A model generated the notes under the pieces. It was not told the origin of the DNA. It was given only the letters and a program-made list of their open reading frames with translations, and searched no databases. A stretch of 64,000 nucleotides of DNA from Chaetoderma sp. LZ-2023a (taxonomy: Eukaryota; Mollusca; Caudofoveata; Chaetodermatida; Chaetodermatidae), in the NCBI GenBank assembly GCA_034401795.1, contig CM067374.1, positions 95,906,640-95,970,639 of the forward strand, given 5' to 3'. Both the position numbers and the translations under genes were made by a program. This document shows, in pieces, positions 1 through 22,865 of this stretch (the stretch's first letter is position 1; each line of letters opens with the position of its first letter).

Positions 1-187
1 TGATGTTCCATGGACGAGGTCTGTATATCTGCCACATCGCCTGGCGGCTGAGCCACTGGCTAACTGTCTCCAATGTGAAGTTGTGGCCCTTGTGACGCAC
101 AGCCTCGAGTAGTTGGGGGGGCTCATGGTAATATCCATCCGGCTGATAGTAGAGTTCCTCAAGAAAGACGCAGCTCCCGGATTTCAT
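1..187 (-). CDS. Retroviral-type (rve) integrase, N-terminal fragment, runs off the window
   Basis: Reading leftward from the ATG at 185-187 there are 62 open codons to the window edge. Residues 13-14 and 19-20 are Tyr-Tyr pairs, and residues 42-59 read VSQWLSRQAMWQIYRPRP. From memory, this YY...WL.rQ..wqiy.P layout is the short N-terminal region that precedes the RNase-H-like core in integrases of Maverick/Polinton-like elements. The catalytic D,D,E residues would lie left of the window and are not seen. The start overlaps the end of the upstream 79-residue gene by 29 bases, which fits the tight packing of this block. An integrase would insert the element's DNA into host chromosomes. A host-domesticated integrase relative is the main alternative. 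Confidence 0.6.
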   Translation of the reverse strand, partial: MKSGSCVFLEELYYQPDGYYHEPPQLLEAVRHKGHNFTLETVSQWLSRQAMWQIYRPRPWNI

Positions 188-398
188 CACTGATGTCCAC
201 TCCCATCCTGTCACGCATGGCCTGGGCGAACTCTAAACAGACAAACAGACGTCCGTCATTCATTCGACCATCACTGAAGACCTCCTCAAACACCTCCGTA
301 CACCAGCATCTAGTCTCTGCTGGATCCTCACTGAATGGTAATTTATCGATTAACCCTCGGAAGTTAAGTGTCTTGACCAGGTCGCACAGAGACGCCAT
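159..398 (-). CDS. Small acidic hypothetical protein, 79 residues, of the virus-like element
   Basis: I chose the ATG at 396-398 because it directly follows the GTTTAAG/TATATA leader; a longer open frame upstream runs through that leader. The product begins MASLCDLVKTLNF, has no membrane segment or signal peptide, and carries several cysteines in the first half (CWC near residues 31-33). I do not recognise the family. It lies between the acidic membrane protein upstream and the integrase fragment downstream, overlapping both neighbours by short stretches, as in a compact viral genome. The frame is intact, unlike several neighbours. Its function cannot be inferred from sequence alone. Confidence 0.5.
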   Translation of the reverse strand: MASLCDLVKTLNFRGLIDKLPFSEDPAETRCWCTEVFEEVFSDGRMNDGRLFVCLEFAQAMRDRMGVDISDEIRELRLS

Positions 399-420
399 CC
401 TTATATAGTACGGCTTAAAT
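399..420 (-). promoter_or_regulatory. TTTAAG + TATATA leader before the 79-residue gene
   Basis: On the minus strand the order is TTTAAGCC, then TATATA, then ATG three bases after the TATATAAGG tract. It overlaps the 3' end of the upstream gene. The arrangement recurs before most leftward genes here, so it is probably a promoter. Transcription itself is not shown. Confidence 0.5.
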
Positions 421-838
421 GTTCGTTGGACCAGATGGCCACGAGTGCTAGGGAAATATATGGTAGCCAAGGGCCTACCACTCCAAAGAATGTACCTACT
501 CTTGAGGCGATGGCTGGTATGGCTTCAGAAATCTTCTCCACCCCATGGAGAGCATTGTTGGCGATCTTGCGGACTATCTCGCCAGCCTTCATTGTGAACA
601 GAGCGATCAGAGCCCCAACTGCTGCCAGTGGACCGATAGAACCATTTACGTAAGTGCAATAGATTCCTTTCGCTCTGTGTACTAGCTTGCGGGATTCAGG
701 CTCTACATCATCATACTCACCCGCGGTCTCCGCTACATCGTAGTCGTCTGCATCATAATCGTCCTCATCATAGTCCTCCTCATAGTTCTCATCTTCTATA
801 TCCTCGACTGGATCATCATAAGCCTCTGATTCATACAT
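401..838 (-). CDS. Acidic-tail protein with two membrane segments, 145 residues
   Basis: I take the ATG at 836-838; a GTG nine bases further out is less likely in a eukaryote. Residues 1-48 are extremely acidic, with repeated Asp/Glu/Tyr runs. A basic stretch (residues 50-57) follows, then hydrophobic segments at about 68-83 and 116-136, so a membrane protein with an acidic head is expected. The family is not recognised. It shares a divergent promoter region with the rightward coiled-coil gene at 888, and its 3' end overlaps the leader of the next leftward gene. In a virus-like element it could be a virion membrane component, which is inference only. Confidence 0.5.
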   Translation of the reverse strand: MYESEAYDDPVEDIEDENYEEDYDEDDYDADDYDVAETAGEYDDVEPESRKLVHRAKGIYCTYVNGSIGPLAAVGALIALFTMKAGEIVRKIANNALHGVEKISEAIPAIASRVGTFFGVVGPWLPYISLALVAIWSNEHLSRTI

Positions 839-887
839 ATCCGTCACTGGGGCAGCTATATAGTAGCTTTAAACTGTAGTCTATAGC
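839..887. promoter_or_regulatory. Divergent promoter centred on a TTTAAA palindrome
   Basis: The 49 bases between two divergent starts contain GCTTTAAAC at the centre. Leftward it reads GTTTAAAGC then TATATAG. Rightward it reads CTTTAAAC then TATAGC directly before the ATG at 888. Both sides match the leader pattern seen elsewhere in the block, so one element may serve two genes. Confidence 0.5.
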
Positions 888-1258
888 ATGGCCTCCGCAA
901 TCTTGAATGCGGGTGTGTTTGCGTTTGCATGTTCTTGGGGACAAGAAGGCAGCAGAGGTCGAGCATGAGCGTCATAACCAGGCGATGGAGAATCTGTCTA
1001 AGGAGACGTTTGAGTACAGCAAAGCACTCGAGCATATACGCCAGAGGGAGGCACGCCGACGACAACTCCGAGCTCAGGCCAACCAGAGCCTCAAAGAGGC
1101 AGATAAGAGTCTCGATGAGTACTACGAGGCTGGAAAGATATCTGAGCCAACGCGCGACTATGAAGCATCGACAGGTCAGAAGACAGCAGAGCTTATAAGT
1201 AGTGGTGGCAGCTGCAGTGGTGACGACAGGAGTCGTGCTCTACGCATGCTCAAGCTGA
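888..1258 (+). pseudogene. Broken coiled-coil protein with C-terminal membrane segment
   Basis: Three reading frames carry successive parts. From the ATG at 888 a short hydrophobic start (MASAILNAGVFAFA) is read. Near 935-945 the plausible coding moves to another frame, giving a charged helical region rich in Glu, Arg, Lys and Gln, likely a coiled coil. Near 1196-1202 it shifts again into a stretch from 1202 to the TGA at 1256-1258 that encodes a Val/Ala-rich membrane helix (VVAAAVVTTGVVLYA). This order, hydrophobic start, coil, terminal anchor, is coherent only if two frameshifts are ignored. I recall similar unnamed proteins in cnidarian and mollusc genomes but cannot verify this. Decay or assembly error would both explain the breaks. 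Confidence 0.5.
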
Positions 1259-1319
1259 ATACCTGATGTGTTCGACACGCATACCTTAGCATAGCCAAAA
1301 TAAAGTACCATCACACCTA

Positions 1320-2287
1320 ATGGGCGAGTCCCAGCTATGAGGTTTCCGATGTTGAAGCTGAGCCGGTTGCCCTGATTAGGTGGGATGTTCCTGCCACCGA
1401 GGACAAGTTGGTACGATAGTCAGCACGACAGCCACGGCGTGCACTGTCCCACTGTGACAGGGTCTGAGGACTGCTTCATGACATCAACATTATCCACGAG
1501 CGCGCCAAGGTTACACCTCCGTCTGATGCGGAAATACTGGAAACCATAGAGGAAGGAGTGCCAGCTCATAGTACAGAAGAACTCCTGACTCGGATACTCT
1601 ACCGGAAGTTTGACAGCACCCAGGGCAGGGCACTCAACCTGCCTGTGGGCCCAAACCAACAGTCCTGTTATTCTAGCTCTCCAAAGGGCGAGGGTCGATC
1701 CCAAAGATCTACTAACAGTCGGGAAGTGGGCTGCTGTATTTAGCCTCCATAGCCAAGAAGAGCGAGATATGCTGGATATCCTCCAGTCTGGTGCAAATAA
1801 CTACTTCAGGGAGGAGGTCAGTGCTGCTGTAGCGGAGAGCCATGACACCGGTCATGCAGAAGGTACTCAGGAGGGGTTCACTGTTGGCCGCAAGGAGGCT
1901 ATTGAGCACATCTTCTACGAAAGAGGGCGCAGGAGTTGGCCAGTAATCTGCCAGCATTTCTGAAATTCCCAGATAACGACTAGGACTACCTCATCAAACC
2001 CACTCACAAGCATGATGCTTGTCGTGGAAAAGTGGGTCTTCCGTGAGAAGTTCCAGAAGAAGAGAGTCCTAGACTCTGACGCTCAGTGGATAGAGTTTCA
2101 GCAACAGTTTAAGCGACAGGCTTCTAACGAAACTGCCGAAGTTCCTGAAGCTTCTGACGAAGTTCCTCAAGCTTCTGACGAAGTTTCTCAAGCATCTGAC
2201 GAAGTAGCAGAGACTGCGGACGAAGTAGCGGAGACCACAGAGCCTTCTGATGAATCAAAAATGTTGCAGCCGACAGTCTGTCAGTGA
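1320..2287 (+). pseudogene. Degenerate rightward gene of unknown function with Ala-Ser-Asp-Glu repeat tail
   Basis: Coding character is visible on the plus strand but switches frame several times: an N-terminal part from about 1333, a middle part 1499-1670, a long stretch 1640-1960 (containing VDPKDLLTVGKWAAVFSLHS), and a tail 2012-2287. In-frame stops occur near 1417 and 1961. The tail, after a Gln/Lys-rich helix, has short tandem repeats built on ASDEVPQ/ASDEVAE, giving a low-complexity acidic end. The final stop overlaps the stop of the convergent ATPase gene by seven bases, so this was a real compact neighbour. No family was recognised. The number of lesions makes it a pseudogene. Confidence 0.45.
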
Positions 2288-2943
2288 TGACGCATAGAGC
2301 AGGCTAGTTTCCTGGCTGGGTTCAGCTTGTAGGTGAAGGTCTGCGCCTTTTCCAGAGATGGCTTGAAGTGTGACAGCTCACCTGTCTCCTTGTTGCTGAA
2401 GATGATGCGGGACAGCTCAGCTGCCCTCTGTACACCTGCGATAAAGTCCCCTTTGGTCTCCTTGAGGGTTAGGCTGTTGTATATGGTCTCGAGCAGGGCA
2501 CGTCCACACTTGGAGCTGAAGTATAGCAACTGGGCATTGTGGCGGATGTCCGGTGAGATCTCGCGGGTGTACTTCTGAAAGAGGATGAAGACAGTTATCT
2601 TTGTGTGCCGGATGCACCTGGTGATGTTGCTGAGGTAGGTGACTGTCTTCTGGTCCATTGCAGGGTCATCGATAACTAGAACAAGTGGTTCTGTCAGTTG
2701 GGCTGCCAGCAGCTTCTCCATCAGTGCTTGCAGGTTCTGCATCTTTGTGATTGGTCCATTGTACCATTGATCATTACTGTCAACCGCCTCAGCGGCGGAG
2801 TCAGACACCAGAAGGATGTATTGAGAGTGTAGATGTTCGGCCAGGAGATCCCACAGCAAGATGTTTTTCCTGTGTCCTGAAGGGGCAATGATCAGCACCA
2901 CCTGGCCAGCATCGGCCGGCCTACCGTCGAATGGTACAGACAT
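2281..2943 (-). CDS. A32/FtsK-HerA-like DNA-packaging ATPase with altered Walker A
   Basis: A 220-residue P-loop ATPase. Strand-loop VVLIIAPSGHRKN (residues 15-27) sits where the Walker A should be, but the usual Gly before Lys is Arg25 and the Ser/Thr after Lys26 is Asn27. Walker B is PLVLVIDD (86-93). The polar sensor is Gln123 in VFILFQ, followed by PDIRHN (131-136), which resembles the P..IR.N signature of A32-type packaging ATPases in large DNA viruses and Polintons. Such enzymes pump genomes into virions. The altered P-loop predicts lost or weak ATP binding, matching the decay of neighbours. The start overlaps the upstream 92-residue gene by 23 bases. Confidence 0.65.
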   Translation of the reverse strand: MSVPFDGRPADAGQVVLIIAPSGHRKNILLWDLLAEHLHSQYILLVSDSAAEAVDSNDQWYNGPITKMQNLQALMEKLLAAQLTEPLVLVIDDPAMDQKTVTYLSNITRCIRHTKITVFILFQKYTREISPDIRHNAQLLYFSSKCGRALLETIYNSLTLKETKGDFIAGVQRAAELSRIIFSNKETGELSHFKPSLEKAQTFTYKLNPARKLACSMRHH

Positions 2944-3199
2944 GCATGCGGATGATGGTTAGCACTTGGTCACCGGTAACCTCGTCTATATCTGGGAGAC
3001 TAAACCGCAGTACTTCCTGCACCAGCTCTTTCGCCTGCAGAGTGGGGAATCCTGCATCTCCGGCATATACGAAGGATGTGATGGAGGCGTCAAGCATGAA
3101 ATCGCAGCAGCAGCTGAGAAGATAGCATAGAGGGCCTGTGTCAGCACCCACAGTGTCTAGTACATCCAGTATCTGTATGATACATGCACGGGAAGCCAT
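2921..3199 (-). CDS. Cysteine-containing hypothetical protein, 92 residues
   Basis: The ATG at 3197-3199 lies 22 bases downstream of a GTTTAAG motif. The product is mostly helical, with a Cys-rich middle (LLSCCCDF, residues 28-35) and no clear membrane segment or signal peptide. It immediately precedes, and overlaps by 23 bases, the packaging-type ATPase, suggesting translational or functional coupling. I do not recognise the family. The frame is intact. It could be a small partner of the ATPase or of the virion, but nothing in the sequence proves this. Confidence 0.45.
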   Translation of the reverse strand: MASRACIIQILDVLDTVGADTGPLCYLLSCCCDFMLDASITSFVYAGDAGFPTLQAKELVQEVLRFSLPDIDEVTGDQVLTIIRMHVCTIRR

Positions 3200-3220
3200 G
3201 ACTATCCTGTGGTCTTAAAC
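3200..3220 (-). promoter_or_regulatory. GTTTAAG leader before the 92-residue gene
   Basis: Minus strand: GTTTAAG, 8 bases, GGATAG, then ATG. The motif lies inside the last codons of the upstream 168-residue gene, so promoter and coding sequence overlap. Confidence 0.4.
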
Positions 3221-3708
3221 GGCAAACCAAAGAACCCTGACTTCTTCACCTCTGGTAGCTGGAGGCTGGTGGTAGCACCTTTTTTGCCATCGACAGTGAT
3301 ATTGCTCAGGCTGATGGTGCCTACCCTGAGATTCTCTTCATCCTGTTGGAATGAGCTTCGTGGTTTCCGGAGATCCTTAACCAGGACTTGTGCATAGGAG
3401 TCACACATAACATTGATGGCACCAGCCTCATCGACTCCGAGCATACCGAGCATCATTGCCCTGTCTTTGATGGCCATCCCCTTGTATACAGTCTTGGCCT
3501 TGCTAATGGCTGATTGTCCTACCGTATCAGTGTTCCCGATGAGATCTCGGGCTGGGATGGTACAGCGGATCTCCTGCGGGTCTCCCTTCTCATCGAAGTC
3601 TAGGAAGGTGATAGGGGCAACAGTGTCCTCTGAACCGAGGCATGCCTCGTCCAAGTGAGCAAGATCGCCTAGCTCTTTGCTTTCTATGTCTGTGAGTGAC
3701 AGAGTCAT
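3202..3708 (-). CDS. Hypothetical protein of the virus-like element, 168 residues
   Basis: Intact frame with a start (3706-3708) just after a strong GTTTAAG...TATATAG leader. The product is soluble-looking and acidic at the N-terminus. Its central block, about residues 70-115, is well ordered (KDRAMMLGMLGVDEAGAINV then CDSYAQVLVKDLRKPR), and the C-terminal half is beta-rich (ISLSNITVDGKKG). No catalytic motif is obvious. It may be a structural or assembly protein given its place between membrane proteins and the packaging ATPase. I cannot name the family. Its stop codon lies in the leader of the next gene. Confidence 0.5.
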   Translation of the reverse strand: MTLSLTDIESKELGDLAHLDEACLGSEDTVAPITFLDFDEKGDPQEIRCTIPARDLIGNTDTVGQSAISKAKTVYKGMAIKDRAMMLGMLGVDEAGAINVMCDSYAQVLVKDLRKPRSSFQQDEENLRVGTISLSNITVDGKKGATTSLQLPEVKKSGFFGLPFKTTG

Positions 3709-3729
3709 AGTGCTATATATGGCTTAAAC
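3709..3729 (-). promoter_or_regulatory. GTTTAAG + TATATAG leader, best example
   Basis: Minus strand: GTTTAAGCC, then ATATATAG, then CACT and ATG. This is the clearest copy of the shared upstream element. It is only 21 bases long and fills the whole gap between two genes. Confidence 0.55.
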
Positions 3730-3954
3730 CTACCAGTCATAACCCCAGTGAAATAGTTGGGCATAGGAGGACCACGCAGTCGGCCAAGGGAATAGGTAGT
3801 GCTCAGGGTACTGGCCCTCTCTGTAGGGGCACGCCTTGTGGGCAGTCCACCATTCCAGGGCATTGGCGATCCTCAGTCCGCGTGGCCGACTATGGGCTAC
3901 ACACCGCTCTCTGGCACGCCATGCCTCATATGCTGCAGGGGTCTCGTGATCCAT
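3730..3954 (-). CDS. Trp/Tyr-rich small protein, 74 residues
   Basis: The ATG at 3952-3954 follows a GTTTAAC...GAATAG leader. The product is rich in aromatic residues (seven Trp, several Tyr) and Ala/Arg, ends in GYDW, and has no membrane span. The spacing to both neighbours is about 20 bases, all taken up by leader motifs, which supports a real gene despite its size. I do not recognise it; a minor virion or DNA-binding protein is possible but unsupported. Confidence 0.4.
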   Translation of the reverse strand: MDHETPAAYEAWRARERCVAHSRPRGLRIANALEWWTAHKACPYREGQYPEHYLFPWPTAWSSYAQLFHWGYDW

Positions 3955-3979
3955 CTCTCACTATTCAGAGGGGTTAAAC
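3955..3979 (-). promoter_or_regulatory. GTTTAAC leader, variant with GAATAG
   Basis: Minus strand: GTTTAACCCC, TCTGAATAG, TGAGAG, ATG. It closely resembles the next leader upstream (TCTCAATAG, AGAG), so the two form a subtype lacking the full TATATA. The GTTTAA includes the stop codon of the upstream gene. Confidence 0.45.
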
Positions 3980-4492
3980 GTAGGCGACAATGATCTCAGC
4001 CATTGCACTCGTTGCTAGCCCTAGAACCGCGGCATCCATTAGTGTAACACGTTCACTCATGATCTTGGCAGCAACAGTGTAGGAGGCACCGCTGAGGGCG
4101 ATCTTTGGGATGGGGTGAATTATTCCAAGACAGTGCCCGGCCACCCCATTCACCACGGTAGCGAAGACAGCCGCAGTGGCGGCAGAAAGGACCTCATTTC
4201 CCCCTGTCATCTTCACCACGGCCACATTGGCCACCACGTTACTGGCGACATGGACTGCCAGAGGTTTTGCTTTGGTCAGTAACTTCTGTGTCTTGGTTCG
4301 CAGCAGGTTCTCCACCTTCTGAAGACTCGCCTGGCTCTCAGGCAGTTGCTTCATGATCTCTACAGTGACGTCATTGTATAAGCACTGAGTATACAACGCT
4401 GTTAAATGTCTGCGTCCCCTGTCGAGAGAGCCAATAAGATCTTCCCAGTCTGCATCTGCCAGGTGGCCGGGTTGGTACTCAGGAATATTCAT
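3974..4492 (-). CDS. Multi-span membrane protein, 172 residues
   Basis: Intact frame. The first 75 residues are soluble and helical with a basic end. The rest is hydrophobic, with segments near 78-93, 101-125, 131-143 and 152-171, rich in Ala, Val and Gly like small viral membrane proteins. There is no signal peptide. It is divergent from the rightward gene at 4516, with only 23 bases between the starts. The last codons end in GTT TAA, which supplies the motif for the next leader. A role in an internal virion membrane or in membrane remodelling is conceivable. The family is not recognised. Confidence 0.5.
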   Translation of the reverse strand: MNIPEYQPGHLADADWEDLIGSLDRGRRHLTALYTQCLYNDVTVEIMKQLPESQASLQKVENLLRTKTQKLLTKAKPLAVHVASNVVANVAVVKMTGGNEVLSAATAAVFATVVNGVAGHCLGIIHPIPKIALSGASYTVAAKIMSERVTLMDAAVLGLATSAMAEIIVAYV

Positions 4493-4515
4493 CTCTCTAT
4501 TGAGACATCTTAAAC
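4493..4515. promoter_or_regulatory. Short divergent intergenic region with GTTTAAG
   Basis: Leftward it reads GTTTAAG, ATGTCTC, AATAG, AGAG, ATG. Rightward the ATG follows CTTAAAC with no TATA-like tract. The whole 23 bases must serve both genes. Confidence 0.45.
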
Positions 4516-4968
4516 ATGTCCGGGCTCACGCTATGCAAGAAGCACTATGAGGTCTTCTGGAGGGAGTTGAAGGACTACAAGAAGAAGACCCCATATGAGC
4601 TCGCTCGGCTCTCTGGTGCTGAGCTGACAGCCGTGGAGCTCTATCTAGGATTTGGTAAGGGGCAGATCTGCTTTCTCGAATACGTTATCATGGGCGGGAG
4701 TATCGTCGAGCTGCTCCTGTGAGCTAAAGGTTTCTACAAGGATCGGGAGTATCTGTCAGATGTGTTCCAGCAGTTGCAGACCTCCATGGCCTCACCTGAC
4801 TCAGAGCTGAACAAGTCTTTGCGATACCACAAGCTGGAAAAAGGATGCGCTGTGGAACCATCCAGCCGTTGGATGTGCATGTTGGCCGCGTGTATAGGGG
4901 CTGTAGGGCAGGCCAAGCTGGTTCAGTGTCTCACCGTGCTTCCCACTGCTACTGTAGAGTCAGGATAG
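4516..4968 (+). pseudogene. Rightward small gene with one in-frame TGA
   Basis: One frame is open from the ATG at 4516 to the stop ending at 4968, except for TGA at 4720-4722. Without it the product would be 150 residues. The N-terminal half contains a Cys/His-bearing helix (LCKKHYEVFWRELKDYKKK) and a hydrophobic patch. The C-terminal half has another hydrophobic segment near 4880-4930 (MLAACIGAVGQA). TGA could derive from CGA by one transition. I cannot name the family. Divergent spacing to the 172-residue membrane protein supports that this was a real gene of the element. Confidence 0.45.
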
Positions 4969-5048
4969 TCTTATAGCTGATTTGCTAGCGGCGGAGTAGG
5001 CTGATCCCGAGCGACACAATAGCTAGGCCTGACAACACTCGTGTCGAC

Positions 5049-5117
5049 TGGCTGCAGTGTCAGGGTCGGAGCTGCCATGGGAAGCGTCGTCTCAACTGGC
5101 TGCAGTGTCAGGGTCAG
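5049..5117. repeat. Two copies of a 19-20 bp unit at the end of the structural gene
   Basis: TGGCTGCAGTGTCAGGGTC occurs at about 5050-5068 and 5099-5117, 49 bases apart. It encodes repeated SDPDTAAS or, in another frame, TLTLQPV. The true C-terminus of the leftward gene is uncertain because either frame could continue through the repeat. Confidence 0.6.
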
Positions 5118-6243
5118 AACAACTGTATGGTGCGTTGATATCAGTGTTGAAGCCGAAGTGGACAGCGGGGGAACTCCCCTCAACTATCATGTTGTTATAG
5201 CCCCTGACTTGGAGGTCCTCGATGTCCACGATCATGTTGCTCGGAATCAACCATAGGTGTGGTGAAATAGCAAAGTGAAGTTTGCGACGGGCCTTCTGCA
5301 ACCCCTGCTGGAACTTAGCAATAAGACTGCTGGGATCTGCCACGATGATCATAAATTCAATGAGACTGATGAACATGGCCTGGATCTCTGCTCTGCTGAC
5401 ACCATCTATCGAATGATGCAGCTTGGTCTGTGCTGTAAGGAGGCCGTAGTACAGTGCTTCCAGGGACTGGTTGATCTGAATGATCCCTGCCGGTGTGAGG
5501 CCTGAGGTGGTGTGTGGGGTAAAGTACTTACACACATCTGGATAGTCCTGCCGCAAGCCAGTAATGTGCATATTTTGCACCAGCGCTCCAGGGTAGGAGT
5601 CTGTATTGAACAAGAATGTCGCTGTCTTCCGGTGGCCTACTCGTCGGGGTGATTGATACGGGAATCCTGAGTAGTCACATCTCGGGTCACCATACATAAC
5701 CCCTAGGCCACTGTTGTCACCACCATGCCACCGATAGTCTGGGTGAGCGCTGAACTCTCTCTGTAGTCTGCTGGCTGCTGAGACGCTATGACTGTTGAGC
5801 TGTGGGTCGAAGTCGTTTGTGTCAGGGAGGCTTGCACCCAGCTCATGGAGGATTCGTCGCACCGTGAAGTACACATGGAATCTGAGACAGCTGGCGATGA
5901 GCACAGCTTCAGGAGTATCAGAATAGGAGTGAAGCAGGGTGGAACTTACTCCACATCCTGCCGTGGCACACCACACAGCAAAGTTCAGCTGCTGATTCCA
6001 GTATGAGAGGCTTGGAGCAGCCATCCAAGTATGAGCTTGCGTCGCATCCTTGATGGTGATTGGGCGGTTGGTCAGCGGTCATGGGTTGACGAAGAAGCTG
6101 GATCGGGACCGTCCATCCACTGTGATGGAGAACGGTGTTAGCTCTGGTATATCATCCAGTAGAGCTCTCAGGCCAGTCAAGGGTGTACCCAGGAGGGGCG
6201 GTTGGCTCTGGATGACTGTCGTGAGGTTCAGTTGGAAGGCCAT
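5092..6243 (-). pseudogene. Largest protein of the virus-like element (probable structural protein), interrupted by TGA
   Basis: The ATG at 6241-6243 follows a TTTAAG...TATAG leader. The frame runs to 5092, 383 codons, broken only by TGA at 6079-6081 (codon 55). The part after the stop is open for 310+ residues. Distinct blocks include SYWNQQLNFAVWCATAGCGV and a Gly/Asn/Tyr-rich middle followed by alternating beta-like segments. It has no membrane span and no enzyme motif. Size, aromatic content and position make a capsid or other structural protein plausible. I recall similar anonymous proteins in other invertebrate genomes but cannot name the family. Extra sequence from 4971 to 5091 may be the real tail in another frame. 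Confidence 0.55.
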
Positions 6244-6264
6244 CTATACTGGTGTTCTTAAAGC
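6244..6264 (-). promoter_or_regulatory. TTTAAG + TATAG leader of the large gene
   Basis: Minus strand: GCTTTAAG, AACACCAG, TATAG, ATG. It decides the start at 6243 rather than the internal Met at 6024. Confidence 0.5.
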
Positions 6265-6282
6265 TACCGTACAGGCAGCACA

Positions 6283-6884
6283 CTATTTGCAGTCGTCTCG
6301 ACTCCGTAACATCTCGTTTTTTAGCTCCTCCATATCAACCCGCCAATTGGAGGCTTTGAGGTATTGCTGTCGCACTTTAGGTTTTTCCGTGTGGTACAGG
6401 GCTTGGACCTTCAATATATGGTGGTACTCTTCATCGGTGACCTGGCCATCCACGAGAGCTTTGCTGACAGACTCGTCGATAGTCTGTAGCATACTCTGTG
6501 CCAGTGTCACGTACTTAGCATGCTTCTCCAGCCTCCTTGTGATCTGCCGCTGCCCCACCCCAAGCCCGTGGCCAAGACAGTGATGGCTAGTGTCACGCCA
6601 CCCAGTCGGATGGCGACGAGGGCACCCACCTCTGTAGCGAGAGTGGCCACAGCTGCCACACCAGCACTAGCGCCAATCACACCGGTAGCAGTGGTTATAC
6701 GTGTGAGGACGTTGTATGCCGTCTTATATCGCCTGCACGTTCTGCTGTACTTTTCTGCCTCAAGGACGCGATTCTGCCTGATGGTATCTATCTGCTGGAG
6801 TCGCAAGCCATGGATGGTACCACCCTCGTCAGCAGTCAGGGAGGGGTATAATTCTGGTTGCTTCCGCCACTCTGATTTTGCCAT
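6283..6884 (-). pseudogene. Membrane-anchored helical protein, split by a frameshift
   Basis: The first part (6884 to about 6545) starts at an ATG after a GTTTAAG...GATATAC leader. It has a basic helical region and two adjacent hydrophobic segments (about residues 65-105, rich in Val/Ala/Gly). Near 6540-6555 the coding continues in another frame to 6283, with a charged helical domain containing VSKALVDGQVTDEEYHHIL, like a helix-loop-helix with an acidic loop. The two pieces overlap exactly where expected of one disrupted gene. From memory this two-part layout is common in uncharacterised invertebrate element proteins. Function unknown; a membrane-tethered virion protein is a guess. Confidence 0.5.
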
Positions 6885-6905
6885 AGTATATCTGGAGGCT
6901 TAAAC
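6885..6905 (-). promoter_or_regulatory. GTTTAAG + GATATAC leader
   Basis: Minus strand: GTTTAAGCC, TCCA, GATATACT, ATG. The GTTTAA is formed by the last Val codon and stop codon of the upstream 98-residue gene. Confidence 0.5.
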
Positions 6906-7196
6906 AGGCATCACCGGCAGAATCTGCTCATGAGTCATAGAAGGGTTCATTTTGGAGAGCCTGGCAAACCATACCAGCTTGCGGGTGTTGAGACAGACGT
7001 CTCTTAGACAGCGGTCATCCAGCACTATGACGGGTGCCAGTAGCTTTCTGAGACGTGACATCTGGAACTTCACCGTATCACCAAGATAGTAGGTCCACTG
7101 CTGGATGGCTTCCTTGGTCTTACACTTCTGCACCATCTCCTCTTCCCACTGTATGACCTCTGGCTCATCCTCGTCTGAGAAGACACCTGGCTCCAA
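6900..7196 (-). CDS. First gene of the leftward cluster, 98 residues, likely mutated start
   Basis: The frame is open from TTG at 7194-7196 to 6900. The position matches that of ATG after the other leaders, so TTG probably replaces an original ATG. The product begins with an acidic stretch (DEDEPEVIQWEEE), is helical, and contains no membrane segment. It is the gene nearest the right-end repeats, so it may be the first transcribed. The family is not recognised. If the start is really lost, the gene is dead. Confidence 0.4.
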   Translation of the reverse strand: MEPGVFSDEDEPEVIQWEEEMVQKCKTKEAIQQWTYYLGDTVKFQMSRLRKLLAPVIVLDDRCLRDVCLNTRKLVWFARLSKMNPSMTHEQILPVMPV

Positions 7197-7214
7197 GAGA
7201 TTGTCGCTTAATTA
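7197..7214 (-). promoter_or_regulatory. Degenerate TTAAG leader at the right end
   Basis: Minus strand: AATTAAGCGACAATCTC then TTG. It resembles the GTTTAAG...AATAGAGAG subtype but without a clean TATA tract. Confidence 0.3.
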
Positions 7215-7660
7215 CACTCATTAACCCTTGTCCATCAGCATTGCGCTAATTACCATTAAGCTCGCCTCATTGGATGCCAGGAGGCACGTGATTTAACGAG
7301 GGGGCGCAGCTTCATTGTTGAACGAGTTCCCAGAGTCTGGAAAAGTTGAGTCCCGACATGTAGCCTGTCAATCATTCTTAATTACCTGCATTAACCCTTG
7401 TCACACGTCATTACACTAATTACCCGTAAGCTCACCTCCGTGGATGTCAGGAAGCACGTGATTTAATGAGGGGGGAGGGGGCTCCGCGATTGAACGATTT
7501 CACAGTCAGGAAAAAACGAGTCCAGACATGCAGCCTATCAATCATTCTTAATTACCCTCATTAACCCTGACAATCATTACGCTAATTACCCGTAAGCTCA
7601 ACTCATTGGATGACAGGAGGCACGTGATTTAATGAGAGGGAGGGGCCTATGGACATCCTC
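7208..7660. repeat. Three direct repeats of 170 bp, each with CACGTG, at the right end of the element
   Basis: Units start at 7208, 7378 and 7548, each opening with TTAATTAC and sharing CATTAACCCT, a TAATTACC block, TTGGATG.CAGGA and a CACGTG hexamer (7285, 7455, 7621). The third copy is cut short near 7660. They lie just outside the first gene, where terminal or subterminal repeats of a linear DNA element would be. No inverted partner can be seen because the left end is outside the window. Confidence 0.75.
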
Positions 7661-7880: not shown

Positions 7881-9295
7881 TTTTCAAGGAAAAGGGGACA
7901 GACAATGCATTATTAATTTTTGATAAACCTTGTGTGCCAGCATAGAGCATATGTATACAATTTGAGAAGAAATCACCAATCCATAAGCTGTTAACGTGTT
8001 GACCAAATAAGTATGACTCACACGGTCAAAGGGCTTTGTCTTGATATAGGGACAGTATGGCGAAAGATAGTGAATAAGAATTTGAACATTCCACAGCATC
8101 AATTATCAGCCTGATGTTATTAACTATATCTTTCTTCGTGGAATGCGATAACCCTAGTTTTCTTGAATCATCTCGGAAAGAAATTTGCTAATGCGGTTGC
8201 ATAGGGTTATGGAAAAAATTATCAGATCAACACATACAAGAGATACAGGTCTCCAATTATTAATGCGACTGATGTCACCTTTCTTTGGTAATAAAGAAAT
8301 GACTGCTCGTCTGCATGATGTAGGTAATCTCATATCTTTGATGGATTGGCTAAAACAGCATTTAAATCACCAATAAGTTCCCAAAACGTTTTATAAAAGT
8401 CAGCAGGTAAACCATCTATTCCAGATTTTTTTATTGTATATGTTTGTAACTGCCGTAGAAAGTTCTACCAAATCAACTGATTTATCTAGATCGTCTTTGG
8501 AAACGTCACTCAATTTTGGGAGCTCGACCAATAACGTGCTTTCGGGATGCTTACACGAATCTCCATTATTATATGTCTACCTGGTATAAAATCCTGACGC
8601 TTAACACAAAATATCTTTTTCTAAATCCATACTATTTGGCAGAATTAAATGTGAAATAGAGTTAGTTGTACCACGTTTCTTTTTTAAATAAAAAAACCAA
8701 CCATGTTTCGTTGGATTGTTCAAGTCATTTAGATGCTGAAAGAGAGATGGTACCAACGCGCCTCTGGATCGTTGTTCTAAGAGAGACAACAGGGACGCTT
8801 GCTTTTATTTGATTTCATTGTATAAGTCATCAGCTCTTGGTATTTTAGCAGATAAATTCTCTATATGATGTTGCTACTGTAACATATTTTCTTTAAAATA
8901 GCAGCTCGTTCACGAGAAAAAAACCCTGCGATATACTCCTAATATGTTTCTTACCCACATCCCCGCAATCTTGCAAGTTGTCAAATGTAGATATTCTTAG
9001 AAAATCTGGAAGACGCTGTGCTTATGCGAGACAACCATTTGATTTAAATATTCAACAGCCATTGAATGGGGTTCCTGTATCGAAGTTTACCAATTGCGTG
9101 GTCTAAAGTACGGTTGAAATACCCTACAAGAATTAATGGATATGGTCCCTGTAAAGATGAAATATGAGCTTTCATTTTTTTCTCAGGTGGGTTATAGCCA
9201 TTCTGGCCAGATGAGCTAATAATGGCAATATGCTGCTAGTGTTGCATAGTCGGACTCTACCATACCAGGGAGACATCTTCACAGACCACGCCGGG
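7880..9295 (-). mobile_element. Decayed L1/Tx1-type LINE fragment (endonuclease end to mid RT)
   Basis: Reading on the minus strand from right to left: an endonuclease end with PLILVGYFN near 9111-9150 (GDFN-like), then a linker with YLKKKRGTTNSISHL near 8640-8700, then RT blocks GIDGLPADFYK (about 8395-8430), LPKKGD and NNWRPVSL (8237-8295), and FDRVSHTYL (about 7985-8035). These are standard L1/Tx1 clade landmarks in the right order. Stops and frameshifts separate them and no full ORF survives. The YADD catalytic block and the 3' part are absent. The right part of this LINE (from 8622) recurs at 21501-22174 as part of the larger duplication. Confidence 0.75.
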
Positions 9296-9300
9296 TTGTG

Positions 9301-9319
9301 GAAGAAGAAGAAGAAGAAG

Positions 9320-9349
<30 letters not shown>
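9301..9349. repeat. (GAA)n microsatellite
   Basis: About 16 perfect GAA units at the edge of the LINE remnant. Copy B is at 22180-22228. Confidence 0.95.
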
Positions 9350-9350
<1 letters not shown>

Positions 9351-9714
9351 CAATCGATTGATTGATTAATAGGTGTTTATTAAATAGATCGCATAATTGT
9401 TATGAATCCACTTGTTTATACAACTGAAAACTACAATAATTAGTGACAATGACAATATTTGCAAACATGTTTATTAAAGATAATTGCCGGTAATGCACTA
9501 GTTTAGGTCACGATGACCTACTCTACACATATTGTTAAATCTGATGTTTAAGTACTGTAGTAGTTTATTACAGTAAACGACACCCCCTTATTACAGTTGT
9601 GTGATGGCGCTATAGCGATAGGCAATTGGACCACTTATTACAGGCCTACAGCGCCTTAGTATTGTGATGGTGGGTAGTTAAAGATCATGAACTGTTCGCG
9701 CGCCTGCTCACCCA
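9350..9714. other. AT-rich, no gene seen
   Basis: There is no ORF of note and no RNA motif. It leads into the CGCA tract. Confidence 0.5.
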
Positions 9715-9846
9715 CACGCACACACACGCTTGCGTACACGCACGCACACACGCACGCACACATACATGCATACACGCACGCACATACACAAATGCACACC
9801 CACACGCACCCGCACACGCACCCGCACACAAACACACACACACACA

Positions 9847-9914
<68 letters not shown>

Positions 9915-9922
9915 CAGACACA

Positions 9923-10006
<84 letters not shown>

Positions 10007-10024
10007 CAAACAGACACACACGTA

Positions 10025-10088
<64 letters not shown>

Positions 10089-10106
10089 CAGACACACACG
10101 TAGGTA

Positions 10107-10162
<56 letters not shown>

Positions 10163-10163
10163 C
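9715..10163. repeat. (CGCA)n microsatellite with interruptions
   Basis: Long CGCA runs broken by CAGACACACACG segments. All frames are open (Thr-His-Ala-Arg on one strand, Arg-Ala-Cys-Val on the other) simply because the unit has no stop codon. It is not a gene. Confidence 0.97.
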
Positions 10164-10339
10164 ACAGGCATGCATAAGCTCACGCATGCGCACTGAACAA
10201 GATTTTGCTTTATAATCATGCCAATACCGTTCACCGATGGCCCGTGGTCAGTGCATAAGGGAAACAGAGAGAAATCATATGCCAGGAATGAAGCTATGCA
10301 TTTAATATTTTAATTTTGATCTAATATTTTATAGTGCAA

Positions 10340-10615
10340 TCAGTCTGAACATGGAAGAACCCCTGGGGTCAAGAGGGGTAACGCCACATGAAATTGACTA
10401 CACCTCGTGTTGATAGAGGTGCAGTTAAACAGACCAAGTGCAACTATTGAAGACAGAATACTGTGATGACCTTTCTCAAGGCACGTAGCAACACTTAGAG
10501 CATATCCAATAGACTGTGTCTGGGGCCTAGGCACAGTCCACTCAACAAGGACAACTATCAGAGGCGCCAACGTTACCATCAATAGCCACAATCTCAAGCG
10601 ACAAGGGGTTACCAT
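10340..10615 (-). CDS. Possible first exon with signal-anchor sequence
   Basis: The open frame starts at 10615 with a basic then strongly hydrophobic N-terminus (RLRLWLLMVTLAPLIVVLVEW, about residues 6-26), typical of a signal peptide or type II anchor. The rest is low in coding character. It stays open in copy B (23197-23472) with one visible amino-acid change (Pro to Ser near residue 29). It lies about 840 bp beyond the terminal exon of the minus-strand candidate gene, so it could start a second, tandem gene. No downstream exon was identified. The frame may be chance. Confidence 0.25.
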   Translation of the reverse strand: MVTPCRLRLWLLMVTLAPLIVVLVEWTVPRPQTQSIGYALSVATCLEKGHHSILSSIVALGLFNCTSINTRCSQFHVALPLLTPGVLPCSD

Positions 10616-10739
10616 AGCTAAGGAGGAGAGACATTAAGAAAACGTTATTATAACATACAGACCACAGGTCACTGCGGGGCAGTCACATTCTGGACAATGC
10701 AGCACCCGCGTGCACACGAACACGCACGCACGCACACTC

Positions 10740-10985
10740 GCTCACACCTACTCACTCACTCACTCACTCACTCACTCACTCACTCACCCACCCACCCACC
10801 CACCCACCCACCCACCCACTCACTCACTCACTCACTCACTCACTCACTCACTCACTCACTCACTCTCTCACTCTCTCACTCACTCACTCACTCACTCACT
10901 CTTACTCACTCACTCACTCACTCACACTCTCTCTCTCACTCACTCTCACTCACTCACTCACTCACTCACTCACTCACTCACTCAC
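10740..10985. repeat. (CACT)n / (CACC)n microsatellite
   Basis: Tetranucleotide tract with Thr-His-Ser-Leu-type open frames as an artefact. Copy B (23600-23812) has a different internal pattern, showing length and sequence turnover between the copies. Confidence 0.95.
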
Positions 10986-11456
10986 ATTCACGAATGCACA
11001 GACATGAATAGTCCACGACCTTACACACCCATCACAATATTAGCAATGTTATGTGTGTTCAGGTTCAGGCTCATACTGTACTACCTCTATGATACTAATA
11101 CACAATATGTTCTCTAAGTGCATTACCGGCGTCCAGCACAAGCATACAAAGTTAACAAATGATGATCAGTTAATGACAAATTAACAAGTTTACAAATATA
11201 AACCATATATACAATAAAATTACACAATCTATATATATTATACATTATATATATACAGAATGTATATGCTCATTGGAAAAGGTAATTAACGTTTATAAAG
11301 AAAAGCAATCCGGATGAAAATGTGAATTATGATACAGCAACGTTCTAATTATTTATGGAATGAATCGACAGTAAGCTAAATATTACAAACGTGAGAAATG
11401 GTATAAATGTGAAAATATGTTGCCTTTACAATTATGAATATTTTATAGGAATATAT
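10986..11456. other. AT-rich stretch, no gene seen
   Basis: Includes a run of TATATA around 11215-11260 but no promoter context. It is downstream of the terminal exon on the minus strand and could hold its 3' UTR. Confidence 0.4.
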
Positions 11457-11509
11457 TTAATCTGAATCATAATCTAGCACATAATTCTCGTCCATCCCAT
11501 CCTCTGTGC
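11457..11509 (-). CDS. Candidate terminal exon of the minus-strand host gene
   Basis: On the minus strand a CAG acceptor after an ATTATTATTTT tract (11510-11512) is followed by a short acidic coding end, TEDGMDENYVLDYDSD, and a TAA at 11457-11459. The exon enters in phase 1, matching the phase-1 donor of the candidate exon ending at 12667, so the two join as ...NYTG-TEDG... The tract is identical in copy B (24282-24334). Small exons are easy to over-call, so confidence is moderate. The protein tail would be cytosolic or secreted and acidic. Confidence 0.4.
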
Positions 11510-11514
11510 CTGAA

Positions 11515-11529
11515 AATAATAATAATAAC

Positions 11530-11593
<64 letters not shown>
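11515..11593. repeat. (AAT)n microsatellite
   Basis: ATA-rich trinucleotide run directly beside the splice acceptor of the terminal exon. It is shorter and purer in copy B. Confidence 0.95.
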
Positions 11594-11944
11594 GTCAGCT
11601 ATCTGATCAAATATGTCATGTGTTACCTGACGTCACAATCAAATGATGTAGCTCCGAAAAGTCTGTCACGAAAGCGTCTAATTATAATTTAATACACATT
11701 ATCTTGAATAATTTGAAACTAATTTGACTACGAGCTTTTGATGCCATGGGTAAAATATTCAATAGTTCGCCTGTATAATTACCTTAGTAGGCGGAACTTA
11801 GCTAGAAATGGGATTGGCATAGATAGAAATGAATCCCTGTATTGGTGAAGCTTATTCATATTATTCATTATCAACTTCGATTAAAACATTATAGTGTGTG
11901 GAGATCTGCAGGGGCTTCTAACACGTGAATAGCAACGCATCTCT

Positions 11945-12552
11945 GAAACAACCACCTCCTAACACTTTGAACCAGAAAGGTCAAACACGAAACAACCACC
12001 TCCTAACACCTTGAACCAGAAAAGCCAAACACGAAACAACCACCTCCTAACACTTTGAACCAGAAAGGTCAAACGCGAAACAACCACATCCTAACAATTT
12101 GAACCAGAAAAGTCAAACACGAAACAACCACCTTCTAACCAGAAAGGTCAAACGCCAAACAACCACATCCTAACACTTTGAACCAGAACGGTCAAACGCG
12201 AAGCAACCACATCCTAACACTTTGAACCAGAACGGTCAAACACGAAACAATCACCTCCTAACACTTTGAACCAGAAAGGTCAAACATGAAACAGCCACAT
12301 CCTAACACTTTGAACCAGAAAGGTCAAACATGAAACAGCCACATCCTAACACTTTGAACTAGAAAGTCAAACATGAAACAGCCACATCCTAACACTTTGA
12401 ACCAGAAAGTCAAACACGAAACAACCACCTCCTAACACTTTGAACCAGAAAGGTCAAACATGAAACAGCCACATCCTAACACTTTGAACCAGAAAGTCAA
12501 ACATGAAACAGCCACATCCTAACACTTTGAACCAGAAAGGTCAAACACGAAA
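11945..12552. repeat. 44-bp minisatellite, about 14 units
   Basis: Unit contains AACAACCACCTCCTAACAC then TTTGAACCAGAAAGGTCAAA. Units vary by CTCC/ATCC, CACG/CATG and small deletions. Copy B (24745-25574) is 222 bp longer, equal to about five extra units, so the array is length-variable. It lies in an intron of the candidate gene. Confidence 0.95.
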
Positions 12553-12666
12553 AATCATCTACAATACAAGCACCGTGCTGCTGGATCGTTTAAAGTTAAT
12601 TTGACTGGGAGCCTATGACAACAACAAGTTCTTCTCACATTAGCTTCAAGACATTCAAATTCTTAC

Positions 12667-12730
12667 CTGTATAGTTACCTTCAAATCGATATTCTGGAGG
12701 TACCATACAAAATGCCACATGGCAACATGT
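12667..12730 (-). CDS. Candidate internal exon ending in EGNYT, phase 1
   Basis: On the minus strand the segment MVPPEYRFEGNYT is followed by ACAG and a consensus donor GTAAGA (12661-12666). It ends in phase 1 and so joins in frame to the terminal exon at 11509. The 5' boundary is uncertain. The same Y.F..NYTG-plus-donor block appears at six or more other places in the window, mostly inside TIR MITEs, so this exon may be MITE-derived, or the MITE may have captured it. Copy B has it at 25689 and upward. Confidence 0.35.
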
Positions 12731-13583
12731 GATATTTCTTTAAGACCACATTCATATTCAAGGAGCCACGACCATTACAGACATAACCTTACTAGTCGTG
12801 ATTGACATCATACATTGCAGGTACATCTTTGGAGCTATAGCTATACATGTTGTGGATTCCAGTGAGATTTTCACCAATGACCAATATCGTCACCGGTGCA
12901 ACAGAATGTTAGCAAACTTCGGACTATAACTTTTACTACCAGAGGTGAAGAGATAAGATAATCTGAGTGCACTTAGAAGTGGTTTTGAATCGATAGCTGA
13001 CACGTTAGCAAGGTACATGTTGGCTATCCACTATGCAAATATGAGGGTACAGGAAATGAAAATATAACTTTGGCGCTACTAGGATTCTGCCAAAGCATTT
13101 AGGCCGGATGTCCATTTATTTTGCGTGCCAGGGGGCTAACGACAAGTGGCCCATATATCTGGGGTAGGTGCGACAGTGTTGCCACCCTCCAACCCATCTG
13201 AATTGGGTGGGTGGGGTGTGAGACAGAGAATTCCCCTCCTCAAGAAAACCTTTACGATTTAGCTGCGCTCAGGGCGTGTATTGCGCTTTTCTGATTTAAG
13301 TATGTATTTGGAGAGAACGAGCGAGCATACTAGATCTCCAATAGAAAATATTTGAAATTTAGATGGCTTCGGAGTGATTTTCCTGCACACATGGGTTCCT
13401 ATAGGAAACATTTTCGGGGATTTTCTGAAATTTAAATCCACCAGAGTGTCTCTTGCATTTCTGGAGATATTATATTATCAGTTGTAAATTTGGATATATG
13501 CATGTGTTGGCAAGATAAATGGCACACTGGCCTGCCCCCAGGAAAATCATGAAATGAAGATGCCCTCCTACATTTTTGGACGT
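12731..13583. other. Intronic or intergenic sequence, no gene seen
   Basis: I see no supported exon or RNA gene. Short minus-strand open frames at 13259-13635 show no domain. Confidence 0.4.
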
Positions 13584-13936
13584 AATTCACCTTTCCAGCG
13601 TATCCATCTATCAATCTGACGTCACATGACTTCATAATCAGCTAAATGGCATGGTGGATGACGTCGTAAACATTACGTCATGAATGATTCTATTAGGCCG
13701 GTCTTTAACTCTTAATAGTCCGACATGTTGTACGAATTGTATGTCTCTACTATTTAATAACCATACTGTTGAATATTTTGAAACTAATTTGACTGCACGC
13801 TATATTCAATAACTTGCCTGTATAGTTTTCTGGAAATTGATAGTCAGAGAGTTCAGATGTCGATCGATCCCAACACGAGCGAGGTGTGGGTGGTGCTTAG
13901 CCAGAGATGGGCGGGGCATGACTAAAAATGGAATTT
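13584..13936 (-). mobile_element. MITE with GGACCTTTCC-type ends, CRE-rich
   Basis: Starts TTCACCTTTCCA and ends near AAAATGGAATTTTG; the TIRs are imperfect. Internally it carries several TGACGTCA-like sites, the TTTTGAAACTAATTTGACTG core, a GATCGATCGATCC-like block and a GGGCGGGGC block in the order typical of the family in this window. Copy B is at about 26607-26960. Confidence 0.6.
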
Positions 13937-14337
13937 TGTATTAATATGTGTATGTGTTGACAGGAGAAAGGATGCAATCTTACTTGCATGTGTATAAGTG
14001 CTGAAGGAGAATGTGCGTGGGGTTCCTACCACAGAAAATATTTGAAATTTAGATATCCTCAATATATAAGTTGAAATATTATTTGAATATGTACATGTGT
14101 TCGTAAAAAGGTAGCATCAGCTGAAATCTTACTTGAATATGTATATATGCGTTGGCGTGAGAAATGGCACAATGGTTCCCCTCCACAAAGAAATCTGAAC
14201 TTTAGATGCAGGGGGGGGGGGGGGTATTACGAGATGAAACCTGATAATGTATAGAATAAGCAGTAAGATTGTTCCATCGACGACAACAGTAGCCGTGAAC
14301 GTATATGAGATCGCCATCTGATAGTGAGAATGACTAT

Positions 14338-14718
14338 TTAACACCTCTTATGTAAATGGCCCTTTAAAGCGCTCAAAATACTATTTATTTCAATTAAACA
14401 TTTAATTGCCAATACTATTCAAGGAAATTTTGAATTTTGCAGCCAAAAATAGTATTTTTGTAAATTTATAACGAAAATTTATTTTTTTAAATAGATTTCT
14501 GTTATGCTTCAAATGGACATTCATCAAAAGTTTAATGGTCAGGAAAATTCAAATTTCTGCTTAGCCAGTGTCCAATTGCAGACCAAGAACAGTATTTTAG
14601 AAAATTTAGCACTGGAATGGCTGACTCGGTTACCAAATGGACATTTCTCAAGATCACTGCAGAGGTCGTTTGGACGAACGTGACCATTAACGGGTTAAGT
14701 TGACACAGGAGGTGTTAA
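14338..14718. mobile_element. 381-bp MITE with TTAACACCTC ends
   Basis: Left end TTAACACCTCTTATGT and right end ACACAGGAGGTGTTAA are inverted repeats. The interior has no ORF. A related element lies inverted at 50250-51041, sharing long blocks such as ATTGCCAATACTATTC/its complement and GCTTAGCCAGTGTCCAATT. Copy B is at about 27362-27742. Confidence 0.7.
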
Positions 14719-15069
14719 GGGCTGGTATTTTCCAATATGGTGATCAGATTTACATTCTGTCAGAGCTCTGTCATAATAACAACATTCTTTGGAATGTACG
14801 GACAATGGTCATGTAGATTTGTCAGATGGTCTCTATCATTCATCTTTTAAGATGTTGGCACCAAAAATATTAATTCGTCAGTGTTTTGTAAGTCGCAACA
14901 ATGTACAGTTGTAGACTTTTAGAACATCTGTGACCCCAGTCTATAGGCATGCAATAGTATGCAATACTAATTCTTCACAATGCTAGTACCACATGCGCGA
15001 ATATACGTGCACATATACAGGGTGTGGTGGTGGCAAATGGTAATGTATACATGTAAGTGTTATACTTAC

Positions 15070-15726
15070 ATTGATTAGTACAACACTGGAAACACCACCT
15101 GATGCTATGTTTGAGGCCTCTGGCTATGGTGCGAACAGACTTGTTATCATTATCAGGTTCTGGCACATGTGAAGAAGGAGGTGATATCATAATGATTTCT
15201 GTTTCTTTTATTGCCAGATTTAAGTCTATTTTATGAGGCTCGAAGAAGAGACCTCGGATATTTATACAGCTTTGTAGCGATTCCCTAGATAACATGAAGC
15301 TGGCCTCATAGTCCCTCTCTTTCTCCATCTCTCTCTGCTTCTCAATCTGTTCGAGAATCGCCTTCCTTTTCGTATGCTTGGCCTTTTCTTGTTCTATGAT
15401 CTGTCGCAAGTCCATCATGGCTTCCTTAACGGAACCATCAGCATTATTATGGACATTCCGCCGCAGTTGATTAATCGCATCTCCAATTACATCATTACTT
15501 TCAAAATTGGTTTCTTCAACGAACGATTTCCTCTGATTACCACAGCCATTGGTAGCCTGACTGTTATGCTTCGTGTCCCGCTCTGTCGTTATGGATCGTT
15601 GAACACTCTGATTTACAAATTCACCCAGTCTGACGTCACTGACTGAGGTTAACGAGTCACTTGGTAATGACTCAGTATCGCTCTCCCATCTTTGATATTC
15701 ATATCTATCTGCTAATGGTGTCCAAT
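15070..15726 (-). CDS. Candidate main coding exon of a minus-strand host gene (219 codons)
   Basis: Bounded by a clean acceptor (TTGAATTGCAG, ending at 15727) and donor (AAT|GTAAGT at 15064-15069), open throughout its 657 bases, entering and leaving in phase 1. The product is acidic, Ser-rich at its start (ESLPSDSLTSVSDVRLGEF), then has a charged helix with MDLRQIIEQEKAKHTKRKA and KQREMEKER, a likely coiled coil. Splicing to the signal-anchor exon 19101-19194 keeps frame. I do not recognise the family. Copy B is at 28094-28750 with the frame preserved. A homologous but shorter and damaged exon lies at 18684-18862. Confidence 0.5.
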
Positions 15727-15975
15727 CTGCAATTCAATAATACAATGACTTCAGTAAAGTTAGCCGCAACGCGTGTATCCGTATGGGTCGAACAGATGCG
15801 TGCGCACATATCCACACACACATAAGCACAGTCACACTCGAGAAATCCATTTGTGTACCACCTGTTTGAGAGTTTTTGCTGGTCCCAAATGGGATTGATT
15901 GAGGGAATATGGCCTGCGTATATTATGACAATAGCACAATTAGTCTACCATTGGTCTTATTGGTCTGATAATGAT

Positions 15976-16110
15976 AACAACCTTTCCAATTTTAGCAATG
16001 CCCCGCCCACCTCTAGCCAAGCTCCAGCCACACCTTGCTCGTGTTGCGATCGATCGATCCCTGAACTCCCTGGATATCAATTTCCAGTAAAATATGCAGG
16101 GAAACTGTTG
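15976..16110 (+). mobile_element. Partial GGACCTTTCC-family MITE
   Basis: Starts at ACCTTTCCA with the GCCCCGCCCACC, GATCGATCGATCC and YQFP.. blocks, then is cut off after CAGGGAAACTGTTG. The left half only. Confidence 0.5.
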
Positions 16111-16126
16111 AAGGGCGATTCCGAGC

Positions 16127-17681: not shown

Positions 17682-18144
17682 AACTTTAATGTGTAATATA
17701 AAAATACCTTTGAAACTATATCTTGAATTTGGTTATGACTTGAAGTTAGAAAATACTAAAAGAGACATTTGTGTCATTTTTATTTACATTATTTGAAATT
17801 GGTATCAATAAGATTAATTTCAAAATATGTTTTTGAATATCTTTTAGACTGTATGTTTTTTTTTATATACAATGCATCATTCTAATGATTCCATAGCATT
17901 TTAACCTTGGGACTACTATTTTCCCCTGAATAATTCAAAAACAAAAAACAACAAACAATTTTGAAAAAATAAACACATTCTAGACTTTAATGAATTCACC
18001 TCGAAATATATATGTTTGCCAAAGTTTAGACCAAAAATCATGATAGATCATGTAAATTGGTTTATTTAAGTATGGAAATACACCATCAGCAAGGCCAGTT
18101 AAGCATTTGAAATTTTAGTATGAATGTCTTGGTTTGATCGAATC

Positions 18145-19194: not shown

Positions 19195-19245
19195 CTACTA
19201 TGCTAAATTAAATAGAAAGGTCTATGAATGTGTCCGAGTAAACTT

Positions 19246-22198: not shown

Positions 22199-22229
<31 letters not shown>

Positions 22230-22713: not shown

Positions 22714-22781
<68 letters not shown>

Positions 22782-22785
22782 CTCA

Positions 22786-22865
<80 letters not shown>

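Follow-up and report, generated by a model that had tools for sequence, protein, structure and literature searches.

A 64,000-nucleotide stretch of the genome of the mollusc Chaetoderma sp. LZ-2023a (GCA_034401795.1, contig CM067374.1, positions 95,906,640 to 95,970,639; hereafter the window) begins with part of a virus-like element that recurs elsewhere in the same assembly. Judged from its sequence, window 1-7193 belongs to a gene-dense element that we place, in a broad sense, in the Maverick/Polinton class. We give a probability of about 0.88 to the reading that it is an endogenous copy of a linear DNA virus-transposon of that class, which has decayed, lost its right end and suffered an internal deletion. 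In blastn comparisons with eight sister copies the homology ends on the right at 7193, and on the left the element is bounded by a repeat array, so that the whole copy spans from about 4.0 kb in L009, the stretch that directly adjoins the window on its left in the 2.44-Gb assembly, to window 7193. The G+C content is about 52% in the element and about 40% across much of the remaining window. An initial annotation, made from the letters of the window, had described a decayed virus-like element with an integrase, an A32-type packaging ATPase and several membrane proteins, all of which are borne out below, and had assigned it to a lineage that could not be named; its class can be named as Maverick/Polinton. 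The class is already known, and the lineage looks like a variant of it on account of the 5-bp target duplication, the virion genes that were not recognised, the terminal arrays and the motif at gene starts.

Searching the genome with the window ATPase yielded 6,995 first-look candidates and, among them, at least 150 scored matches. Those other than the window copy share 89-94% identity with it, and internal stops occur in 14 of the 150 listed, a figure that leaves frame shifts aside. Sister copies A-H are eight of the nine best-scoring other matches, a choice that favours well-kept relatives, and they were compared gene by gene using the copy D proteins as queries. All eight keep the gene order of the window in both halves, some with deletions; the refuting outcome named in the initial annotation, that the small genes would have no homologues sharing this order, did not occur. 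The integrase and a 411-residue protein are present in all eight at 99% coverage or more, and the Bcl-2-like, 143-, 124-, 291-, 92-, 167- and 74-residue proteins are matched in all eight, some of them partially. The 158-, 430- and 206-residue proteins are found in seven (absent in E), the 78-residue piece in seven (absent in C), and an open reading frame (ORF) at the right end in six, B having part of it; the stretches covered for F and H did not show it. Three copies in which both ends were read (C, D and G) all start with AGTAGTATAGCC and end with GGCTATACTACT, giving the motif AGTAGT...ACTACT, and all three are flanked by 5-bp target duplications (CGCTG, ACTTG and ACACG, respectively). Their end coordinates give lengths of 17.2, 16.4 and 16.8 kb, and, as shown for copy D, the terminal array at one end repeats that at the other in inverted orientation.

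The window locus lies 0.12-0.34 substitutions per site from 19 sister loci, which among themselves have a median distance of 0.042 (171 pairs, range 0.015-0.329). On the left, the nearest of the eight to the window copy is copy B, with 88-90% DNA identity compared with 80-83% for the others to L009, and copy B is more distant from copies A and C (81-91%). The window copy has frame breaks in the 124-, 291-, 430- and 206-residue genes, a stop in the 158-residue gene and a substituted P-loop in the ATPase, and sister homology stops before the right-end gene and terminus. Tandem repeats of 170 bp, 2.6 copies at 7207-7645, are present as first described, but they lie outside the element homology and do not match the sister termini, and they are not the element's own terminus. 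In the sister copies the right-end gene is a plus-strand ORF of about 322 residues by coordinates (L038 5100-5699 and L047 1-468) with the gene-start motif; the ORF has been lost from the window copy, and its first 200 residues gave no Pfam match.

At the left edge of the window, the piece at 2-187 (minus strand) is the N-terminal part of an rve integrase, as initially proposed. Alone it matched no family in the domain libraries, but it is 84% identical to a sister integrase of 331 residues that passes the Pfam rve cut-off (33.4 bits against 32.6). The alternative had been a left flank with host genes and no integrase core; instead the flank holds the core (L009 8447-8998, minus strand; rve 19.4 bits, below the cut-off), polymerase-like frames and a terminal-type repeat array. 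The array, at L009 4009-4308, is 72-87% like the sister terminal arrays, and plus-strand frames at about L009 4690-8260 match one long polymerase-like frame of the sister copies; these polymerase-like frames lie directly left of the window, beyond the stretch in which the initial annotation saw no recognisable family-B polymerase. The sister frame covers 1,160 residues in stretch L037, or about 1,320 by coordinates with its start in the overlapping stretch L051. Exo I, exo II, A, B and C, the motifs of family-B polymerases, stand in it in the expected order, and it matches a PHROG DNA polymerase at an expectation value (E) of 0.018, while its N-terminus reaches 24.2 bits with Rho_N (cut-off 24.9), and a C2H2-like finger appears at E 0.76. 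The integrase piece gave chance-level matches only in tblastn against phages. The Pfam listing of the sister integrase contains no chromodomain, for which no further look was made.

The packaging ATPase (220 residues, 2281-2943, minus strand) had been called A32/FtsK-HerA-like, which its relatives support: P0122 and P0125, two of the four scanned, score 29.7 and 34.1 bits with Pox_A32, above the cut-off of 22.8, while P0121, P0126 and the window copy itself (16.8 bits) stay below it. P0121 comes from a metagenome contig and is 95% identical, about as close as the genome's own copies, and therefore may be host DNA within the metagenome sample. Elsewhere in the genome, five ATPase matches lie at a spacing of about 3.1 kb (G000:C2:90076035-90089251), suggesting that part of the element is arrayed in tandem there.

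The tight spacing of small genes noted at first is also seen in the ORF counts. Positions 1-7200 hold six minus-strand ORFs of at least 120 residues, compared with an average of 0.4 in dinucleotide shuffles, and neither this number nor the longest minus-strand ORF (310 residues) was reached in any of 500 shuffles. The plus strand is less distinct, its longest ORF being matched in 16 and its ORF count in 37 of the 500. One ORF longer than 310 residues was also present in each of two control stretches, out of seven taken from the same window, and a single long ORF is therefore no argument by itself.

A conserved gene encodes a 430-residue protein with a hydrophobic C-terminal tail and is broken in the window into three frame pieces (4984-6243, minus strand). 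The initial annotation had counted 383 codons; the open piece (5092-6024) gives 310 residues from the first ATG, or 328 from stop to stop, and the gene has 430 in the sister copies. The N-terminal piece had no blastp hit to the relative P0001, their local score being reached in 26 of 2000 shuffles; it belongs to the 430-residue gene because the sister copies settle the assignment. For the 310-residue piece, 129 relatives in the database reach E 1e-3 or better, and the more complete of them are about 490-543 residues long; tblastn against phages found none. Among the 51 listed relatives of at least 480 residues, 43 end in arginine or lysine, mostly after a short hydrophobic stretch, and 19 pass a hydropathy threshold of 1.4. 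The contigs of 120 listed relatives cluster at 14.0-16.6 kb (14 against 3 per neighbouring bin, in unequal bins chosen after looking). Three diverged family members, P0020, P0079 and P0102, share the same listed longest contig of 913,888 bp, which suggests several family copies on that one contig. An AlphaFold2 model of the relative P0002, built with 56 sequences, reached a mean predicted local distance difference test score (pLDDT) of 82 and a predicted template-modelling score of 0.72. It has 16 helices and 11 short strands in a mixed arrangement, ends in a hydrophobic terminal helix (493-513), and is not a jelly roll by DSSP. The structural check proposed for this protein could thus be made on a relative, but it gave no significant match to a known fold in any structure library, VIA-align having covered only the top chains of Foldseek. 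We read the 430-residue protein as a putative tail-anchored virion or assembly protein.

A second candidate virion gene is mostly missing from the window. The 411-residue ORF is full length in all eight sister copies, whereas most of it has been deleted here, leaving two end remnants on the minus strand at 1243-1401 and 1423-1497 (tblastn of P0136, 92% over 53 and 84% over 25 residues). Neither Pfam nor PDB matched the protein, and its PHROG matches were at chance level. A crude residue-propensity count makes it strand-rich, although the same count misreads the modelled 430-residue family protein, and it could be a small jelly-roll capsid. Since the gene-start motif directly precedes residue 55, the capsid candidate may have 357 residues. 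As in the initial annotation, no capsid gene was recognised by sequence, but the lack of a candidate in this stretch is at least partly caused by deletion in the window copy.

Several genes carry a common motif at their starts. From a list fixed beforehand, 8 of the 18 ORFs of the window element have TTTAA 10-35 bases before the ATG, against a background of 11 of 279 ATGs in 1-7300, those eight included (Fisher p 8e-9), and 118 of 2,455 in the remaining window. A longer pattern (TTTAA, ATA and ATG), composed after seeing the sequences, occurs 8 times in 1-7200 and 5 times in the remaining 56.8 kb of the window. In copy D, TTTAA stands at this distance before 11 of the 30 ORFs of at least 70 residues in two stretches, a total that includes chance ORFs. 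A divergent gene-start motif at 855-890 is built around a single TTTAAA core, which is shared by the two directions. We read the TTTAA element as a putative core promoter because the motif recurs before unlike genes, and many genes would probably be under their own short TTTAA(G)...TATA(G) promoter.

Another ORF encodes a probable Bcl-2-like protein of 79 residues (159-398, minus strand). Bcl-2 is the best family for it in Pfam (E 5.6e-4, 20.9 bits, cut-off 31.4) and NCBIfam (E 1.5e-3, 18.5 bits, cut-off 283), and for its sister protein in Pfam (E 5.1e-3, 17.8 bits, cut-off 31.4), all below cut-off, while a PDB search of the 79-residue ORF ranked PII proteins above Bax. By sequence likeness, then, the protein is probably Bcl-2-like, but we do not file it as a member of the Bcl-2 family. 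The other small minus-strand genes encode proteins of 145 residues, with an acidic N-terminus and two hydrophobic segments (401-838), 92 residues, overlapping the ATPase start (2921-3199), and 168 and 74 residues, both of unknown function (3202-3708 and 3730-3954), these four being matched in all eight sister copies; a 172-residue protein with up to three hydrophobic segments (3974-4492); a frame-broken 206-residue protein with a double hydrophobic segment (6283-6884); and a 78-residue ORF matched in seven of eight copies (6900-7136). On the plus strand are a broken gene, which in the sister copies encodes a 124-residue protein with a C-terminal hydrophobic segment (888-1263), pieces of a broken 291-residue gene with an acidic repeat tail (1468-2287), and a 158-residue-type protein with one in-frame stop here, matched in seven of eight copies (4516-4968). 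The hydrophobic-segment proteins initially counted can be traced to the 145-, 172- and 125-residue ORFs, with two to three strong segments each, and to a plus-strand 68-residue piece with one. RTX, pore-forming and SLATT labels on the 125/206-residue protein scored below cut-off and were read as generic hydrophobic hairpins. A single-sequence fold of the 168-residue protein was uninformative (pLDDT 34). Scans of viral contigs with the 430-residue family, the ATPase, the integrase piece and the 168-, 172- and 411-residue proteins found no relatives, nor did a scan of prokaryote genomes, and Rfam gave no match.

Vertebrate Mavericks are reported (PMC8097293) to have (AGT)2//(ACT)2 ends, 6-bp duplications and a mean size of about 17 kb. 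The copies here share with them the rve integrase, a polymerase-like gene, the packaging ATPase, terminal inverted repeats, a length near 17 kb and the end motif, but differ in that the terminal repeats are tandem arrays, that protease and jelly-roll genes are unrecognised, and that the polymerase lies on one strand and the integrase, ATPase and most other genes on the opposite one. Adintoviruses are defined in PMC11071296 by a polymerase that bears an OTU-like domain, together with a hexon that can be recognised. The polymerase, retrovirus-like integrase and packaging ATPase are common to adintoviruses, other meldviruses and the element, as are, for some members, unrecognised virion proteins, whereas here the OTU-like domain was not found, the polymerase N-terminus giving the near-threshold Rho_N match, and no hexon was recognised, known adintovirus hexons being outside the comparison. 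With poxviruses the element shares the A32-type ATPase, two relatives of which pass Pox_A32, but the enzyme here has about 220 residues, and the scanned ORFs showed no further poxvirus-like gene. We found no prior account of this lineage in the Maverick- and adintovirus-type literature, which was covered in part, so that absence from print is not claimed.

Four results weigh against placing the element in the Maverick/Polinton class. Every domain match of the window copy alone is sub-threshold; the long polymerase-like frame has no polymerase domain by Pfam, nor by PDB search; sequence comparison of the scanned ORFs recognised neither a cysteine protease nor a major or minor jelly-roll capsid protein, and Pfam, with sister-copy ORFs covered in part, found no adenovirus-like cysteine protease among them; and the target duplication is 5 bp in all three copies, compared with 6 bp in the vertebrate Mavericks of PMC8097293. 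Because the 6-bp duplication was looked for and 5 bp was found, we do not file the element as a vertebrate-type Maverick.

According to PMC8097293, particles of Mavericks have not been observed, although the capsid-type genes of these elements suggest that they are viruses. The element could be derived from a Maverick and spread only inside the genome without particles, its small genes acting intracellularly. The many copies of low divergence and the failure to recognise a capsid or protease gene fit such a history, but most listed copies have retained an open frame for the packaging-type ATPase, the 411-residue gene persists in eight and the 430-residue gene in seven of the eight sampled copies, and the 430-residue family has its 129 listed relatives. 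We consider this reading unlikely. A little less likely still is that a Maverick-type genome is carried in a membrane vesicle, or in another coat that is not a jelly roll, with the tail-anchored 430-residue protein and small membrane proteins as its building blocks. In favour of this, the model of the relative showed neither a jelly roll nor a match to any fold, and several membrane-segment proteins are conserved; against it, the beta-rich protein of 411 residues is itself a potential small jelly-roll capsid, and VIA-align saw only the chains that Foldseek had ranked highest. If the ORFs had come together by chance in GC-rich host DNA, the weak domain matches and the two control stretches with long ORFs would be accounted for, but this reading deserves almost no weight given the minus-strand counts in 0 of 500 shuffles, the order kept in 8 of 8 copies and the paired duplications in 3 of 3.

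The remaining window holds other repeats. Positions 8622-21000 and 21501-34024 form a near-identical tandem duplication (99.2% over 9.1 kb and 95.9% over 3.9 kb) with a run of N at about 21001-21500 between them, and the duplication may be an assembly artefact. An inverted repeat of 2.9 kb and 98.5% identity (34132-37072 and 46119-49053) carries ORFs in its arms of 643 residues (34053-35981, plus strand) and 556 residues (47621-49288, minus strand). At about 55000-62000, ORFs resemble a decayed Gypsy-type long-terminal-repeat retrotransposon, with Gag-, reverse-transcriptase- and integrase-like pieces recognised by eye.

The window copy itself cannot act, since it lacks a right terminus and has breaks in several genes. 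In an intact copy of the element the polymerase would copy the linear genome, protein priming being assumed from the class, the integrase would insert the element into host DNA, and the ATPase would load DNA into a particle. Besides the beta-rich 357-411-residue protein, that particle would contain membrane-associated proteins, including the tail-anchored one of 430 residues, while the small Bcl-2-like protein may delay host cell death. It is a tentative and rather improbable extension of this scheme that a recently spread Maverick lineage forms a membrane-based particle on the tail-anchored protein and runs many genes from their own TTTAA(G)...TATA(G) promoter. The at least 150 mostly low-divergence ATPase copies, the conserved large protein of unrecognised fold and the gene-start motif are targets for the particle question. 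Anti-apoptotic homologues are mentioned for mammal-associated adintoviruses in PMC11071296, and the Bcl-2-like gene may be an addition to a Maverick of a eukaryotic host genome.

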